Positions 52,144 to 59,861 of a DNA stretch of 64,000 bases are shown here, in pieces (within the stretch, counting starts at the first letter, position 1; every line of letters starts with the position of its first letter). The translations under genes and the position numbers were made by a program. The notes under the pieces were generated by a model. That model did no database searches and was not told the DNA's origin. It worked only from the letters and a program-made list of their open reading frames with translations. The stretch lies in the NCBI RefSeq assembly GCF_017358165.1, contig NZ_CP071446.1, positions 1,488,001-1,552,000 of the forward strand, given 5' to 3'. The DNA comes from Thermosipho ferrireducens (lineage in GTDB: Bacteria > Thermotogota > Thermotogae > Thermotogales > Fervidobacteriaceae).

Positions 52144-54675
52144 TCACCTCTTTCTTAATCTTGGGTTGACAATTTCTTCAAGTCCTCTTCCAAGGAAATA
52201 AAATCCTGAACAGAAAATTGTTATTATCAAACCAGCTGGAACCCATAACCACCAATACGCCCCTATATTACCAGAAGATAAGTATCCAGAAGTCCAGGCG
52301 GTGTTGATCATGATACCCCAGCTTATTCTAATTCTGAGAAGTCCAAAGAAGCTTAAAACAGCTTCTGAAAACACTGCGGCAGTAACATTAAACATCATAT
52401 ACAGGAAAGATAAAGGCATTACATTGGGGATTATGTGATTAAAGATGATGTATGCATTGTTTCCGCCAGCTACTCTTGCAGCTTCAATATATGGTTTTAC
52501 TTTTACTGTTAACGCCTGAGCTTTAATAACCAATGTAATACCACCGAACCCTCCAAGAAGACCAAGAATAAGCGCAAGCCAGAACAAATTAATCTGGAAA
52601 AACCCAGAGAGAACTATCAAGAAAGCAATACCCGGGAATAATAAGATCAAATCAGCAAGTCTCATGAATAAGGTATCAACAGCTCCTCCAAAGTATGCGG
52701 CAGTTGTACCAACTATAGTTCCAATCACAACGGTTATTAAAGCTGCCAGAAAACCAAGCATAAATTCACTTGGGGTACTCCTTAAAAGCTGCATGAATAT
52801 GTCTCTTCCACCAGGATCAGTTCCAAGTAAATGCCATCTATTAGGTGGAAGTGGATGTTGAATTCCAAGTTTTGAGTTAAGTGCAAGATTATTGTAAAGA
52901 TTTACAACTGATTCTTTAGCTTCTTTCTGGCTAATTTCAAACGTTGAATTTAGTTGTTTTACAACATCTCCAAGATCATTCTGGTTATAGGCTATGTAAT
53001 CTTTGAATTCATCTGTCCAGAATTCTTTGTTTTTTAGATACTTTATGTGATCTTTCACAAGATTAGCAAAAAGATATCTGGATATAGGTGTTTTAATATC
53101 TGAGTCAGGTAGAAGTAATTTTACTGAATTAATGGGTTTTGAAAGTTCTTTCATCTTCTTTACTATATCTAATCTTTTATAATTTATATCACCTGCATTT
53201 TCTATATTTGAAATTATCAGGTTATAGTGTTTTGTATTTTTTGTCGCAAAGGAAAGTAAAGATACTACAGGTTTGTCCATGGCAGGTATTAGCTGAGTAA
53301 AATCAATATTCAAATAAACATCAGGTATTTTGATATTTTCAGGGGATTCTTCAGTAATGTCAGAGATTATGCTTGCCATAAAAGCTCTGGCGTTTGCCAC
53401 TTCTATAAACAATGCTTCAAGCTCTTTTCTAAATCCATACTGTATGTCCGGATAGTTTGAAAGTGCTGTTTCAACTTTTGCCCTAAATTCAGGTGAAAAA
53501 TCAAATGTTAAAATCGCTAATTTTATCCCGGAAAGTACGTCAAGAAGTTTAACAGGTTCGCTGTAATTGGCTTTTATGTCTAATTGTGAAAATAACGTCT
53601 CTATTTCTTCAAGGTATTGTTTAACCCTTTCATAATTAGATTTTTTACTTTCTTCGTTGGAAAGATCAGGCATTCTTATTTCTGCGTAATTTAACAATTC
53701 TGAATATTGTGAATTTTTTAAAGCTGCTATCAAAGAATCATAATCTCCAGAAATTTTAGAATAGGTTAAAATATCAACAAGAACATTGAATATTGTTGCT
53801 TTTGCTAAATCCTGTACAGGAACCTTTTCGGTTTTTATTATTTCCTCAAGATCCTTTTGATTGGCCACGGAAATTTGAACATTTATTAAGCTCTTTCTTA
53901 CTAAATTTGAAACAACGCTAAAAATCTTTTCTTGTGCCTCTTTGATTTCTTTTTCTGAAAAGTCCTTTCTTAATAGGTTTTTGAATTTTTTCTGTTCTTC
54001 AGAACCTTTTGCTATTTTCAACCATAAGGTTATTCGTGAAACTTCTCGTTTAGATTTGTAAGGTGCAAGAGCCATTGCTAATGTCTCTGTATCTACCTCT
54101 TTGACTAACTTTTTAAAATCACTTAGTGAGAATTTTTTTCTATTGCCAATTTCCAAAATGTTTGCTAAGGGTTTAACTTCAATTAAACCCTGATCAAGGA
54201 GCTGGGAGATTTGATTCTGGTATCTCATTCTTTCTTTCATTGGAATGTAATTATCTACAATGGCATCTAAAATAGGTCTAAATGCCTGTGCATAATCTAA
54301 GTTCACAAATATTTTTTGAGCAACGTCTATTCGTTTTTCTATTGCCTTTTTGAAATCTTCTCCCTGGTCTAAAAAAGAGTAAGTGAACAATGTAGCCGCC
54401 GGGATTTCAATACCTTTTATAACATTTAATGGAGACATGTATTTAGAGACGTACGATATATCCTGAACTCGTGGATCAGTGCCTGTAACAGGATCATAAA
54501 TGCTTTTATCTACAAATTGCCACACTATTGGATATGATAGGGCAAATAGTCCAAATGCGATAATTATAATTAGTCCGAAAAGTCCCAATTTGTGTTCTTT
54601 AAACAGTTCCCAGTTTCTTTTTGTATTTTTCAAAAATAATTTCAGTTTTATTTTGGTGATTGATTCTTTAGCCAT
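52144..54675 (-). CDS. oppC: Oligopeptide/oligosaccharide ABC permease, OppC/DppC type, with a very large extracytoplasmic insertion
   Basis: An 843-residue membrane protein, against about 280-300 for ordinary OppC. Residues 30-53 are the first membrane segment. Residues about 75-600 are a mostly helical hydrophilic insertion (many Lys, Glu, Asp, Leu; few Cys or Trp). The usual permease continues from about 612 with GTDPGGRDIFMQLLRS and five further segments, including the EAA-like loop YIEAARVAGGNNAYIIFNHIIP. By topology the insertion lies outside the membrane. It is a continuous frame with no stop. The start at 54675 follows AAGGGGTGAAATTG. It could dock the binding protein or the cell envelope. 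A similar, smaller insertion is in the MalG-type permease at 7924-9204. Confidence 0.9.
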   Translation of the reverse strand: MAKESITKIKLKLFLKNTKRNWELFKEHKLGLFGLIIIIAFGLFALSYPIVWQFVDKSIYDPVTGTDPRVQDISYVSKYMSPLNVIKGIEIPAATLFTYSFLDQGEDFKKAIEKRIDVAQKIFVNLDYAQAFRPILDAIVDNYIPMKERMRYQNQISQLLDQGLIEVKPLANILEIGNRKKFSLSDFKKLVKEVDTETLAMALAPYKSKREVSRITLWLKIAKGSEEQKKFKNLLRKDFSEKEIKEAQEKIFSVVSNLVRKSLINVQISVANQKDLEEIIKTEKVPVQDLAKATIFNVLVDILTYSKISGDYDSLIAALKNSQYSELLNYAEIRMPDLSNEESKKSNYERVKQYLEEIETLFSQLDIKANYSEPVKLLDVLSGIKLAILTFDFSPEFRAKVETALSNYPDIQYGFRKELEALFIEVANARAFMASIISDITEESPENIKIPDVYLNIDFTQLIPAMDKPVVSLLSFATKNTKHYNLIISNIENAGDINYKRLDIVKKMKELSKPINSVKLLLPDSDIKTPISRYLFANLVKDHIKYLKNKEFWTDEFKDYIAYNQNDLGDVVKQLNSTFEISQKEAKESVVNLYNNLALNSKLGIQHPLPPNRWHLLGTDPGGRDIFMQLLRSTPSEFMLGFLAALITVVIGTIVGTTAAYFGGAVDTLFMRLADLILLFPGIAFLIVLSGFFQINLFWLALILGLLGGFGGITLVIKAQALTVKVKPYIEAARVAGGNNAYIIFNHIIPNVMPLSFLYMMFNVTAAVFSEAVLSFFGLLRIRISWGIMINTAWTSGYLSSGNIGAYWWLWVPAGLIITIFCSGFYFLGRGLEEIVNPRLRKR

Positions 54676-54689
54676 TCAATTTCACCCCT

Positions 54690-56129
54690 TCAGTATCTAA
54701 TCCTTGGATCTAATATTGCATATAAAATGTCAGCAATAAGGTGCGCAAAAAGGACAAAAACACCTGTAAAAATTAAGCACCCCATGGCAAGCGGGGTATC
54801 TTGAAGAAGTGTTGCGTTCAAAAGAGTTAATCCCATCCCTTTCCATGAAAACATTGTTTCAGTAATTACTCCCCCACTAACAGTTGTGGCAAGAGCTAAA
54901 ACAAAACTTGTAATTAATGGTAAGAGCGCGGTTCTTGCAGCGTGTTTGTCTCTTACAACTTTGTCGGGAAGTCCCTTAGCTTTTGCTGTTGTTATATAAT
55001 CTTCTTTGATAATTTCCAGCATTGTATCTCTCATAACCAGCATACTACCGGCAAATCCAAGAACGGTCAACGATATAACAGGAAGAATAACGTGGTAAAT
55101 AATATCAAGGGCATAATATCCATAACCATTTGTCAGCCAGTATATTAATACGCTGCCTATTCCTCCAAACGTGAATGTCAACATCGCAGCATTCTTAGTT
55201 TTTTTGGTTTTCATAAATGATGCAAAAAGTATGCCAACGCTCCAGAACATCACAAGTACTATTGAACTCCATAATAGCTTTATAAATACATCTTGAGAGG
55301 AGAATGTAACATTCAACCATTTAGAGGGTTCTATAAATCCACTAATTGGGAATATTTTTAAGACCACCCCAAAAAGCCAGATCATAATAAGCATGAAAAA
55401 GGGAGTGAAAATCGTCCAGAATATTATTCCCACAAACGTGGCAACTTTATCGGACACCCCACCTCTTTTCCATGCGATTTTTTTCCCAAGATTATATCCT
55501 AAAAGATAAGAAGATAATGTAGTCATTAAAAATAAAAATACAGTTCTTGGAAGTCTTTCTCCAATAATCTCTGCAACAGGTTTGGGATATTCTGAAAAAG
55601 ATATACCAAGTTCCAAATTGAAGAAATTTTTCATGTGTTTTGCATACTTTACATACCACGGGTCGTCAACACCAAAAAGTTTTTTAATTCTTTCGTACAT
55701 TTCAGGTTGTTTCATCAGTTTTGGATCTAAAAACTTTGTTGTGTAATCTCCAGGCATTAAAAGGAAGATGAAAAATACTATTGTGACGTATATCACAAGT
55801 AAAATTATCATTTGATATAACCTATTTCGTATGAATTTAAACAATCCAGGAAGTGGTAATGAAAACAAATACAAAATGAAAAACAGGATATAGTTAAAAC
55901 GTGGGCTAAAAACAAAGAAATATTTAAAGTTAAAAATAGCAGACAAATACAAAGCAAGAGAGATTACTAAAAACACATAGTGATAAAACTTTTCAGCATT
56001 AAATAACGTAATTAGAACGGCAAGTAGTGGTAAAAGTATTGCAAATCCAAAAAACGAGAGACTTTCAAAAAACAATGATATAACAAAAAATATTCCTACT
56101 ATTAGCTGAATCAATAGTTTTATATTCAT
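54690..56129 (-). CDS. oppB: Oligopeptide/oligosaccharide ABC permease, OppB/DppB type, with extended N terminus
   Basis: About 479 residues, start preferred at ATG 56129, since GGAGAGGTG covers the alternative GTG at 56135. The C-terminal 370 residues are a normal OppB: DDPWYVKYAKHMKNFFNLELGISF, then EIIGERLPRT, the loop EDYITTAKAKGLPDKVVRDKHAARTALLP and VITETMFSWKGMG. The first 105 residues add about four membrane segments absent from ordinary OppB, which has about 310 residues. It forms the channel with OppC. The upstream binding-protein gene is separated by a hairpin. Confidence 0.9.
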   Translation of the reverse strand: MNIKLLIQLIVGIFFVISLFFESLSFFGFAILLPLLAVLITLFNAEKFYHYVFLVISLALYLSAIFNFKYFFVFSPRFNYILFFILYLFSLPLPGLFKFIRNRLYQMIILLVIYVTIVFFIFLLMPGDYTTKFLDPKLMKQPEMYERIKKLFGVDDPWYVKYAKHMKNFFNLELGISFSEYPKPVAEIIGERLPRTVFLFLMTTLSSYLLGYNLGKKIAWKRGGVSDKVATFVGIIFWTIFTPFFMLIMIWLFGVVLKIFPISGFIEPSKWLNVTFSSQDVFIKLLWSSIVLVMFWSVGILFASFMKTKKTKNAAMLTFTFGGIGSVLIYWLTNGYGYYALDIIYHVILPVISLTVLGFAGSMLVMRDTMLEIIKEDYITTAKAKGLPDKVVRDKHAARTALLPLITSFVLALATTVSGGVITETMFSWKGMGLTLLNATLLQDTPLAMGCLIFTGVFVLFAHLIADILYAILDPRIRY

Positions 56130-56160
56130 TTTCACCTCTCCTTTTTATTGAAAAATTAAA

Positions 56161-56196: not shown

Positions 56197-58020
56197 TTAT
56201 TTAACTCTTACCACATTTTCCGGGAAACCATTGTAATTTTGAATACCATCAAGTGTGTCTGTGAATGGGAACTCAATTGTATCCCTGTACGCTTCATAAA
56301 TTGGAGTTGTAAAGAGGATAATATATGGAAGGTCTTCTGCGAGTAATTCCTGTGCTTCTTTTATAGCTTCTACCGCTTCATCAAAGGAATCGGCCATTTC
56401 AAATTCATCAATAAGAGCGTCAAATTCTGGATTGGAGTAACCTGGAGTGTTGAAACCTTCAGGTGCGGATTGATCTGATTTCCAGAAACTCTTGAAGTAC
56501 GTTGGGACTCTTCCAATACCCCAGCCAAGCATGTACATATCAAAATCAACTTCGTCAAATGCTCTGGTAACAATTTCGTTGAAGTCTGTAAGTTTAACAT
56601 CAATAGGAAGGCCGAGATCTTTTGCCCATTGTTCTATATAAATAGCAGTTGTAGCTCTCATTGGGTCGTATTCTCCAGACGGAGCGAGAAGTTCAAGGTC
56701 AGGAACGTATTTACCATCTGGTCCCTTTAAGCCTTTTCCACGTTTGACAACCGGGTTAGCTGCTTTTGAAGGATCAATTACTGGTTCCTGATCCCAGCTA
56801 AATCCTGCTTTTTTCAGAAGTTCAATAGCAAGCTGATATCTTTCTCCTCTGCTCAGTCCTTCACCAATTGTTTTGACATCTGCGTTGTACCAGAAAGTGT
56901 TTGCAGGTGGAACTGGCGTGGAAAGTGGTATAGCTTTTCCCTGAAGAACTCTGTTACAAATGTAATCCCTATCGATTAATGCAGCTAATGCCTGTCTGAA
57001 TTCTTTTATGTTGAACGGATATTTTCTCATATTGAAAGCAAGATATCTAAATCCAAGAGATGGATTTACTGTAAGTTTGATTCCTGGAACTCCTTTTAAC
57101 GACTCAAATTCACCTGAGGTCAATCCTAAAGGATTCAATACAAAATCAACATCTCCTTTTTGAAGAGCCTGCAGTGCAACAGCTTTGTTTCCATATATTC
57201 TGTAAATTATCTTGTCTATATATGGTCCATTTACAACTTTCAATTTTACGGAACCTTCTGGTGCAGGATTATTGCTTGTCCATTCAAAACCGGTGGTAGG
57301 ATTCTTAATTACAAATCCGCCGTTTTCATAATAAAGATTTTCTTCACCCTCTGGCAAATAGAAACCTTTTTCCACTACTCTTTTAACTTCTACAAATGCA
57401 CCTTTTTCTATTTTTCCAAGATTCAATGCTGTAATAGCGGGATCTACTACTTCCTGGCTCAACAACCAGTTTACTGGATTTTCCTGCTTTTTAGCTTTTT
57501 CTACATAAGGAGCCCAGAAGTTTTTGCTTACAATGGCAGTCATGAGAGTGTCATAGTAAATTGTCATTGTGGTTTTTTCCTTGAAATAGAATTTCACAGT
57601 CCATTCATCTATTTTCTCTACTTTTGTTGGTTCATATGCGCCTACCCAGTTTCCACCAGGGATTTGCAATTCTTGAATAGTATTGTATGTAAATACAACA
57701 TCGTTTGCAGTAAACGGAGAACCATCACTCCATCTCAAATCTTTTCTCAATTTCACTGTTACCGTGTACATTCCATTTTCTTCTACAATTTTGGGAACTT
57801 CTGCAGCTGCTGATGGAATAAGCATACCGTCTTTATTCATGGTTAACAATGCTGGATACTTCCACAGCTGAACATAAAAGTTCCAGGCAGATGAACCAGA
57901 TCCCAACAGGTTCCAGATGTTTGTGGTGGTAATATCCTCTAAAAGAGCGTAGTTTACAACAGCTTCACCAAATATGAATAATGTTAACAACAACCCAACA
58001 AAGACAAGTAAACGTTTCAT
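56197..58020 (-). CDS. Extracellular solute-binding protein, family 5 (Opp/Dpp type)
   Basis: About 607 residues from ATG 58020, chosen because GGAGGGGTCGC lies just upstream and a signal peptide follows (MKRLLVFVGLLLTLFIFGEA). Family-5 marks: LRKDLRWSDGSPFTANDVVFTYNTI (about 100-125), FRQALAALIDRDYI, and DPMRATTAIYIEQWAKDLGLPIDVKLTDFNEI. It binds a peptide or, as often in Thermotogota, an oligosaccharide outside the membrane. No lipobox Cys. It is the first gene of the operon under the promoter at 58084-58112. The substrate cannot be settled by sequence. Confidence 0.92.
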   Translation of the reverse strand: MKRLLVFVGLLLTLFIFGEAVVNYALLEDITTTNIWNLLGSGSSAWNFYVQLWKYPALLTMNKDGMLIPSAAAEVPKIVEENGMYTVTVKLRKDLRWSDGSPFTANDVVFTYNTIQELQIPGGNWVGAYEPTKVEKIDEWTVKFYFKEKTTMTIYYDTLMTAIVSKNFWAPYVEKAKKQENPVNWLLSQEVVDPAITALNLGKIEKGAFVEVKRVVEKGFYLPEGEENLYYENGGFVIKNPTTGFEWTSNNPAPEGSVKLKVVNGPYIDKIIYRIYGNKAVALQALQKGDVDFVLNPLGLTSGEFESLKGVPGIKLTVNPSLGFRYLAFNMRKYPFNIKEFRQALAALIDRDYICNRVLQGKAIPLSTPVPPANTFWYNADVKTIGEGLSRGERYQLAIELLKKAGFSWDQEPVIDPSKAANPVVKRGKGLKGPDGKYVPDLELLAPSGEYDPMRATTAIYIEQWAKDLGLPIDVKLTDFNEIVTRAFDEVDFDMYMLGWGIGRVPTYFKSFWKSDQSAPEGFNTPGYSNPEFDALIDEFEMADSFDEAVEAIKEAQELLAEDLPYIILFTTPIYEAYRDTIEFPFTDTLDGIQNYNGFPENVVRVK

Positions 58021-58083
58021 AAAGCGACCCCTCCTTTTCAAAAGTGTAAATCAAAATAACTTTGTGTTAAAAAACACGAAATT

Positions 58084-58335: not shown

Positions 58336-58692
58336 ATGCTAAATTTAATACTGACAATTTTGTTTGGGAGCTTTTTTTTAACTATATTGACAGGAATTGA
58401 GTATTTTTTTTATAACATTTTAATCTCGTCAGCCTTAGCGTTAATAATTTACCCGGGGAAGTTTCCTTTTTTGAGGCTAATAGGAACTGTTGCCCAAAAA
58501 ATTCCAGAGGCTATAATAGAAACAGTTGAAATTTTTTTTCTAAAAAAAGAAACTGTTTATCATCTGGAATATAAAGATAATTTTGAAATGCTTGAAAGAA
58601 TTATATACATAACGTTTACTCCAAAAACGTTAGTTTTTGACCATGATGAGGATTATCTCTATGTACATAAGATAGGAAGTGATAACTTGTGA
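58336..58692 (+). CDS. mnhE: MnhE/MrpE-like Na+/H+ antiporter subunit
   Basis: A 118-residue protein with two or three N-terminal membrane segments (4-22, 24-40 and about 46-62) and a hydrophilic C-terminal tail with IETVEIFFLKKETVY and TFTPKTLVFDHDEDYLYVHKI. The tail resembles the TLTPGTL region of MrpE. MrpE is an accessory subunit of the multisubunit cation/proton antiporter and related membrane hydrogenase complexes. AAGGAGGTTTTCAG precedes the ATG. It overlaps mnhF by four bases. Subunits A, C and D are not nearby. Confidence 0.8.
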   Translation: MLNLILTILFGSFFLTILTGIEYFFYNILISSALALIIYPGKFPFLRLIGTVAQKIPEAIIETVEIFFLKKETVYHLEYKDNFEMLERIIYITFTPKTLVFDHDEDYLYVHKIGSDNL

Positions 58693-58937
58693 GCATCTTG
58701 ATTCTAATCTTAATGGCAATTCTTCTAAATAGTTTTATGATGGTGAAAAGTAAAAACATCTGGGAAAAAGTTGTCCCACTATTAGCGTTATCAACGAAAA
58801 TATCGTTGTTCCTTCTGGTTTTTTCGTTTATTAATAAAGATAAGTTCCTGTACGATGTTGGAATTTTATATTTATTATTTGGAACTGGTGGAGGACTTAT
58901 TATAGCTTCTTTTCTTGCAAGGAGTGACATGGAATGA
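58689..58937 (+). CDS. mnhF: MnhF/MrpF-like subunit
   Basis: An 82-residue membrane protein with three segments (about 2-19, 30-46 and 54-74), starting at GTG 58689, which overlaps the mnhE stop. Family identity rests mainly on size, topology and position between E- and G-like genes, as MrpF is poorly conserved. It overlaps the next gene by four bases (ATGA). It is a small accessory subunit of the antiporter complex. Confidence 0.65.
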   Translation: MSILILILMAILLNSFMMVKSKNIWEKVVPLLALSTKISLFLLVFSFINKDKFLYDVGILYLLFGTGGGLIIASFLARSDME

Positions 58938-59215
58938 ATCTTTTTCAACAAATATTTTTGTGGGCAGGGGCTATAATAATGGTCGCAGGGAATATTTTTG
59001 CATTTTTTGAAAATTCAACATTAAAACGCCTTCACTATATAGGTGCAGGAGACAGTATTGGCGGAATGTTTATGTTAATATCCTTTCTATTTTCAAAGGT
59101 GTTTTTCTTTAAAGGATTACTTGCAATAATAATTTTAATTGTGTGGTCTCCAATGGTTTCATATTATATTGCTGTTGCGTATTCAAAGAGGGGGCAAAGA
59201 CGTGCAAATCGTTAG
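58934..59215 (+). CDS. mnhG: MnhG/MrpG-like subunit
   Basis: A 93-residue protein with three membrane segments (about 6-24, 40-57 and 60-80). It fits the PhaG/MnhG pattern: LKRLHYIGAGDSIGGMFMLIS matches the family block (R-L-H-x-x-x-x-x-D-x-x-G), and PMVSYYIAVA the last segment. It completes an E-F-G trio. It overlaps the DUF4040 gene by 14 bases, so expression is linked. Confidence 0.8.
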   Translation: MNLFQQIFLWAGAIIMVAGNIFAFFENSTLKRLHYIGAGDSIGGMFMLISFLFSKVFFFKGLLAIIILIVWSPMVSYYIAVAYSKRGQRRANR

Positions 59216-59861
59216 AGTACTCTTTTTATTAGTAGCTGTTTTATTTGCCTCGCTTGCAATCATTAGAATTAAACCCTTTCATTCTTTTTTGTGGCGAACT
59301 GCTCTCAGTATACTTGCTGTCGCCATTTATACGTTGTATTTTGCTCCTGATGTAGCCTTAGCAGAAGCAATGTTAGGAGCTCTTCTAACAACTTTTGTCT
59401 ATTTGCTGGCAATAAAAATTCATTCTAAGGTACGTGTAGGAATAATTGTTGTACCTGTAATATGTGAAAAATACGGCGATTCTTATGTTGGAATTATTCC
59501 CGGAATAATGGAAGCTTTTGCAAAAAAGTATAATCATAAAATAGAATATGTAGAATTTGAAGATTATAATCAGATCGCAAAAGCTGTAAATGAAGCGGTG
59601 ATAGATATAGGAATAAGTTATTCGGGAGATTTTCCAATAATAGAAGTCCCTGTGTATGAGTATAATGGGAAAAAAAGTGATTATTTCTCTCTTCAGAAAA
59701 TATTGGAAGAAAATCCACATTATGGCAAAATAAGCAAAATTACTAATGCCATGCTTTATTTTTCTTTTAATGAAAGTGATAGTATACTCTTTGAAGAATT
59801 TGAAGAATTCTTCGAAACTTTCGAAAAAGAAAAAATCGTAAACAAGTATTTGAGGAGGTAA
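59202..59861 (+). CDS. DUF4040/MbhD-like membrane protein fused to a binding-protein-like domain
   Basis: About 219 residues from GTG 59202 (GAGGGGGCAAAGAC upstream; the longer open frame overlaps mnhG without a ribosome site). The first 75 residues have three membrane segments and the DUF4040 signature APDVALAEAMLGALLTTFVYLLAIK found in MrpB/MbhD subunits. From residue 76 there is a soluble part resembling a type-2 periplasmic binding fold: KVRVGIIVVPVICEKYG, GIIPGIMEAFAKKYNHKIEY and DIGISYSGDFP. This suggests a ligand- or cofactor-binding domain attached to an antiporter subunit. Likely outside the membrane, not proven. Confidence 0.7.
   Translation: MQIVRVLFLLVAVLFASLAIIRIKPFHSFLWRTALSILAVAIYTLYFAPDVALAEAMLGALLTTFVYLLAIKIHSKVRVGIIVVPVICEKYGDSYVGIIPGIMEAFAKKYNHKIEYVEFEDYNQIAKAVNEAVIDIGISYSGDFPIIEVPVYEYNGKKSDYFSLQKILEENPHYGKISKITNAMLYFSFNESDSILFEEFEEFFETFEKEKIVNKYLRR

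Follow-up and report, generated by a model that had tools for sequence, protein, structure and literature searches.

A putative Group 3 Mrp antiporter with dispersed genes in Thermosipho ferrireducens, whose MbhD-type subunit carries one lobe of a binding protein

Group 3 Mrp complexes are defined by the absence of mrpA, with MrpD only and with domains redistributed over fused subunits (PMC8415708). What energises or controls such MrpA-less complexes has been described as unknown (PMC8415708). Pyrococcus furiosus has a stand-alone Mrp of Group 3, encoded by an mrpEFGBB'CD cluster, in which MbhD continues into MbhE; these two are described as lying where the proton and sodium modules meet (PMC8415708). 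In Cyanobacteria, Group 3 is represented by Ah-Mrp of Aphanothece, a Na+/H+ antiporter according to Fukaya et al. (2009), as cited in PMC5703873. Related subunits also occur in the MBH and MBS complexes. In MBS, the C-terminal tail of the MbhD-type subunit, MbsD, makes contact with the partner complex at its peripheral arm (PMC7684303). Finally, aspartates of the small subunit MrpF are implicated in Na+ transfer (PMC7419157, PMC9568556).

Here, we describe a related set of genes from Thermosipho ferrireducens (Thermotogota), located in a 64,000-nucleotide stretch of contig NZ_CP071446.1 (positions 1,488,001 to 1,552,000), hereafter the window. The MbhD-type subunit of this set, called D* below, is extended by a C-terminal domain. 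As far as the open-access literature searched can tell, which is not proof of absence, a binding-protein domain on an MbhD-type subunit has not been described; the original prediction likewise mentioned no earlier description for this family.

The E-F-G-D* operon and its partner genes

Four genes of the window form the tight E-F-G-DUF4040 operon of Mrp type that had been predicted, with correct coordinates and frames and with matches to the Pfam families. The features are as follows:

58336..58692, + strand: MrpE-like subunit (MbhA type), 118 aa; MNHE Pfam match 8.5e-4, under the cut-off
58689..58937, + strand: MrpF-like subunit (MbhB type), 82 aa; MrpF_PhaF match 1.8e-4, under the Pfam cut-off
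58934..59215, + strand: MrpG-like subunit (MbhC type), 93 aa; PhaG_MnhG match 4.1e-10, exceeding the Pfam cut-off
59202..59861, + strand: D* (DUF4040/MbhD fusion), 219 aa; GTG start, 14-base overlap with the G gene
59202..59426, + strand: D* residues 1-75, segment of MbhD/MrpA-C-terminal type with three transmembrane (TM) helices; MbhD Pfam match 5.8e-9, exceeding the cut-off
59427..59858, + strand: D* residues 76-219, 144-residue tail, one-lobed SBP_bac_3 (type 2 periplasmic-binding-protein) domain
59664..59729, + strand: D* residues 155-176 approximately, short strand-helix cap in the place of lobe 2, from the secondary structure of the model

The E gene, which is the first of the set in relatives too, follows a strong ribosome-binding site (AAGGAGG). 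The F gene starts with GTG and overlaps the E gene by 4 bases; its product matches the NCBIfam model of subunit F at 1.4e-9, under the cut-off. The overlaps between E, F, G, and D* are those of a translationally coupled operon, and a gene for an M42 peptidase begins 4 bases past the D* stop codon. The PF13244 three-TM segment with its conserved PDVA..E motif is present in D*, of which residues 1-75 match 6u8y_D at 1.6e-12; the three helices are also found in the structure model. As predicted, no A, C, or D gene adjoins the set in the window.

Upstream of the set, on the minus strand, the window also carries a DppC/OppC-like peptide permease of 843 aa (52144-54675), much longer than is usual for such permeases; its first TM helix is followed by an insertion of about 500 residues. 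This permease adjoins a DppB-like permease of 481 aa (54690-56135, minus strand) with extra hydrophobic segments at its N-terminus, next to an OppA-like binding protein (56197-58041).

The set had also been called an orphan, a view ruled out by searching the genome (1.98 Mb, a single contig) one protein family at a time. Three PF00361 channel genes were found, two in an mbh-like cluster at 86-97 kb and one encoding a stand-alone MrpD at 734.6 kb. No further PF00361 gene was found in the genome, and hence no large MrpA with the N-terminal NuoL-like channel of the canonical Group 1/2 Mrp. The stand-alone MrpD aligns to MbhH (6cfw_H) and to MrpD (7qru_D), with the TM5 Glu and the key membrane Lys kept. 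An mrpC gene lies downstream within the same locus (734.6-737 kb), past a gene at about 736.0-736.7 kb that we take to be comB-like, from its resemblance to 2-phosphosulfolactate phosphatase. A second MnhB gene, at 1325 kb, is recognized by NCBIfam as antiporter subunit B above the cut-off; its N-terminal part is MbhE-like, as judged from a weak Pfam match and from an alignment to 6u8y_E, and we read its product as a fused MbhE+MrpB. Thus C, D, E, F, G, B, and the MbhD- and MbhE-type domains all exist in the genome, the MbhE part by a weak match.

Computation on this gene content leads us, with high certainty as to content and dispersal, to assign the set to a dispersed Group 3 Mrp module without MrpA channel, beside the separate mbh-like cluster; the assignment is made from sequence. 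Group 3 genes are expected in one cluster and here occupy three loci; such scattering is not a property of the complex, and so is not disqualifying. The P. furiosus Mrp (PMC8415708) and the T. ferrireducens set both have no MrpA channel, one MrpD, all the MbhA-H-type domains, and fused MbhD/E/F-type subunits, and in both genomes there are separate respiratory Mrp-like complexes. They differ in that the T. ferrireducens genes are dispersed, that the MbhD-type subunit bears a lobe of a periplasmic binding protein (PBP) rather than MbhE, and that MrpE and MrpF are weakly matched by Pfam.

Since the subunits are encoded at three places, we infer their joint assembly from co-occurrence. D* with its tail was found in 38 of 61 relatives (Thermotogota). 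The stand-alone MrpD has orthologues in 35 of the 61 and the 1325-kb B has them in 37; every one of these genomes carries D*, and no such orthologue was found in the 23 genomes without D* (Fisher p of about 1e-13 and 1e-15, values that ignore shared ancestry). The D* genomes without an MrpD orthologue are two fragmented assemblies (G021 and G044) and G057, which is also without a clear B. Two other genera of the T. ferrireducens family (g2, g3) and most of a second family (f2) are devoid of D*, the stand-alone MrpD, and B at once, suggesting that the antiporter was lost there in its entirety. Outside the T. ferrireducens family, the genes are contiguous, mostly in the order C-D-E-F-G-D*-B, with B, C, and D placed after D* at two loci (L055 and L056). 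The same C-D-E-F-G-D*-B order surrounds the D* homologue in Synergistota, Cyanobacteria, Pontiella, and Desulfobacterota. Because the operon is contiguous in other families and phyla, dispersal is most likely derived, the T. ferrireducens family having scattered an ancestral operon.

These data also bear on the idea that E-F-G-D* serves another complex, for instance by supplying the respiratory mbh-like complex with alternative small subunits. Homologous subunits do exist in the mbh-like cluster, and the genome has just one stand-alone channel subunit. However, that cluster is complete, with its own E, F, G, MbhD (79 aa, without fusion), B, and C besides hydrogenase-type subunits. In addition, D* is found in company with the stand-alone MrpD and B, whereas the genomes without these keep the mbh-type MbhD and B, and the operon of the relatives unites D* with its own C, D, and B. 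Service in another complex is therefore highly improbable.

The C-terminal domain of D*

The original prediction had noticed binding-protein features in the tail. They are real: SBP_bac_3 is matched by 21 of 22 homologous tails (best 7e-11), although T. ferrireducens D* itself gives a sub-threshold match over residues 93-139. When compared with the PDB, a profile of the 22 tails finds type 2 PBP chains, BvgS (2.1e-9), GlnPQ (6e-9), and AncQR (5e-7). An artefact of gene calling was also ruled out, as the fusion is a single open frame and no stop separates the two parts in about 30 homologues.

Structure prediction and fold comparison of residues 76-219, proposed as a check, gave a binding-protein fold. 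The AF2 model of full D* has a mean pLDDT of 85.5, and that of the isolated domain a pLDDT of 91.6 and a pTM of 0.84. Amino-acid-binding proteins rank first in Foldseek, with E-values of 4.5e-5 and 1.9e-6. VIA-align gives Z of about 14.5, and most of the alignments comprise 140-146 residues, the targets being 220-260 residues long (for 4ymx, Z 14.6, rmsd 2.7, 144 residues aligned).

The alignments also indicate which part is missing. In AncQR (4zv1), lobe-1-type matches fall at chain residues 28-78 and 192-233, so that the N- and C-terminal parts of lobe 1 are both represented, and about 40 positions of the tail profile stand for the approximately 110 chain residues that separate these matches. 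Similarly, residues 323-401 of the GlnPQ SBD2 chain (79 residues) correspond to 15 residues of the tail of a relative (L056), which covers positions 3-130 of the 132-position SBP_bac_3 profile. In the D* model, two long strands run to the short strand-helix cap at the position of lobe 2. Two lobes with a closing cleft were looked for in homologues, profiles, and models, and lobe 2 is absent from D* of T. ferrireducens and of its relatives. Candidates for full two-lobed proteins in Thermotogaceae were rejected: their 304 aa are the length of the open frames, and from the homologous start the proteins have about 222 aa and are one-lobed.

We therefore consider with high certainty that the computed fold is a single PBP lobe, with lobe 1 kept and lobe 2 reduced to a cap. 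Judged from sequence and model, the tail is homologous to solute-binding proteins and yet would lack their defining features. Indeed, it shares the fold and sequence of lobe 1 with SBP_bac_3 proteins such as AncQR (4zv1), the GlnPQ domains (6h30, 4kr5), and 4ymx. Unlike these proteins, it has no lobe 2, it is fused to a membrane subunit, and it is probably cytoplasmic. The Arg that binds the alpha-carboxylate (TxxER motif) is also replaced in the relative tested (L056), where it aligns with a Glu; the segment is shortened in T. ferrireducens. Conserved residues near the former cleft are E89 and, in many relatives, a CGG motif that is lost in the T. ferrireducens family.

Position and possible role of the lobe

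The side of the membrane on which the lobe stands was deduced from the distribution of positive charges. K+R averages 0.5 per protein at the N-terminus; loop 1 has 2.6, loop 2 has 0.03, and the stretch just past helix 3 has 2.9. This pattern predicts an outside N-terminus and an inside C-terminus. From these charges and from the position of the MbsD tail, the lobe is probably on the cytoplasmic side, and we hold this with fairly high confidence. D* shares with MbhD and MbsD (6cfw, 6u8y) the three-TM DUF4040 segment and a conserved Glu, the invariant E55 of D* aligning with E58 of MbsD. The MbsD tail is short, Trp-rich, and in contact with the partner complex, whereas D* has a folded domain of 144 residues.

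According to the original prediction, the domain might sense a ligand or metal and control the antiporter. The lobe would then be a true sensor, through which a solute from outside or from the cytosol acts on transport, in keeping with its genuine SBP_bac_3 ancestry and with the conserved residues by the former cleft. Against this, there is no second lobe, and a single lobe is unlikely to act as a ligand switch by closing. The relative tested has another residue in place of the canonical Arg, the lobe is predicted to be cytoplasmic, and the CGG motif has been lost in the T. ferrireducens family. A classical ligand sensor is thus unlikely; the sensing part of the proposal is weakened, while control of the antiporter may be exerted by another route. 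We consider it likelier that the lobe is a structural or regulatory domain in the cytosol, over the junction where H+ and Na+ are coupled.

The reading that we favor, with a probability of about 0.6, is the following. In an MrpA-less (Group 3) cation/proton antiporter of Mrp type, E-F-G-D* would make up the sodium-path half, joined in the membrane by MrpC, MrpD, and the fused MbhE+MrpB from the two other loci. D* would be the coupling-layer subunit (MbhD or MrpA C-terminal type) with an added domain, presumably derived from SBP_bac_3 lobe 1 after deletion of lobe 2. Protons would be swapped for a monovalent cation via MrpD together with the C/D*/F/G/B layers. The lobe would face the cytosol over the coupling layer, where the proton and sodium modules meet, and would not bind amino acids by closing a cleft. 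It would instead stabilize the assembly or a dimer, or gate access to the cation path from the cytosolic side. This role of the lobe is the weakest step of the model. If correct, D* would be a case of a binding protein that has shed one lobe and has apparently been relocated to the cytoplasm.

The nature of the transported ion is less clear. MrpF proteins of the D* clade, cyanobacterial and Synergistota ones included, are devoid of the canonical ADR/ALD aspartates and have a conserved Lys five positions past the ALD Asp; the other MrpF of the genome keeps the aspartates. By our own mapping, the ALD aspartate is presumably the MrpF residue implicated in Na+ transfer. With the canonical Asp of the Na+ path missing from this MrpF, the identity of the ion carried is uncertain, and the question of ion coupling is raised for the whole D* clade. 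A more far-reaching proposal would combine these changes with an input function of the lobe: a partner protein or cytosolic signal, bound over the H+/Na+ junction, would gate or drive transport, and the loss of the MrpF aspartates together with the new Lys would reflect a different ion-coupling chemistry. We regard this combination as rather doubtful.

Distribution of the fusion and its cyanobacterial relatives

Conservation of the fusion in relatives was likewise established by computation. The full fusion is found across Thermotogota and Synergistota, and a shorter, more diverged tail is present on the D* homologue of Cyanobacteria, Pontiella, and Desulfobacterota. This reduction, together with the loss of the CGG motif in the T. 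ferrireducens family, is what would be expected if the lobe were a decaying, functionless leftover of an old gene fusion. However, the tail is carried by D* in all 38 Thermotogota genomes, and the lobe is under purifying selection (dN/dS of about 0.05-0.15 in close Thermotogaceae pairs), which argues for a present-day role. The cyanobacterial tail is also conserved in itself, with 13 invariant columns. A leftover is accordingly very improbable. Conserved as a folded domain of the coupling subunit in Thermotogota and Synergistota, and reduced in Cyanobacteria, the lobe would rather be a concrete candidate part for the control of Group 3 complexes.

The cyanobacterial Group 3 mrp operon (L087, for example) has the C-D-E-F-G-DUF4040-B order in common with the D* operons, and its tail is related. 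Two mrpD genes are present in the reported cyanobacterial clusters (PMC5703873), vs. one stand-alone MrpD in T. ferrireducens. D* matches the NCBIfam PRK07377 models, named "hypothetical protein," at 4e-14, under the cut-offs, which suggests a possible origin for this protein of cyanobacterial mrp operons. The cyanobacterial tail is shorter than that of D* and is not recognizable as SBP_bac_3 alone: a direct search with it for SBP_bac_3 gave nothing significant in the PDB or Pfam, and direct identification was dropped. The sole link is the profile comparison with the Thermotogota tail (E 3e-5, probability 73%, 81 columns). In L087 and others, the PRK07377 tail resembles the start of PBP lobe 1 and then diverges, with a R.(Q/K/R)R.Y motif conserved near its end.
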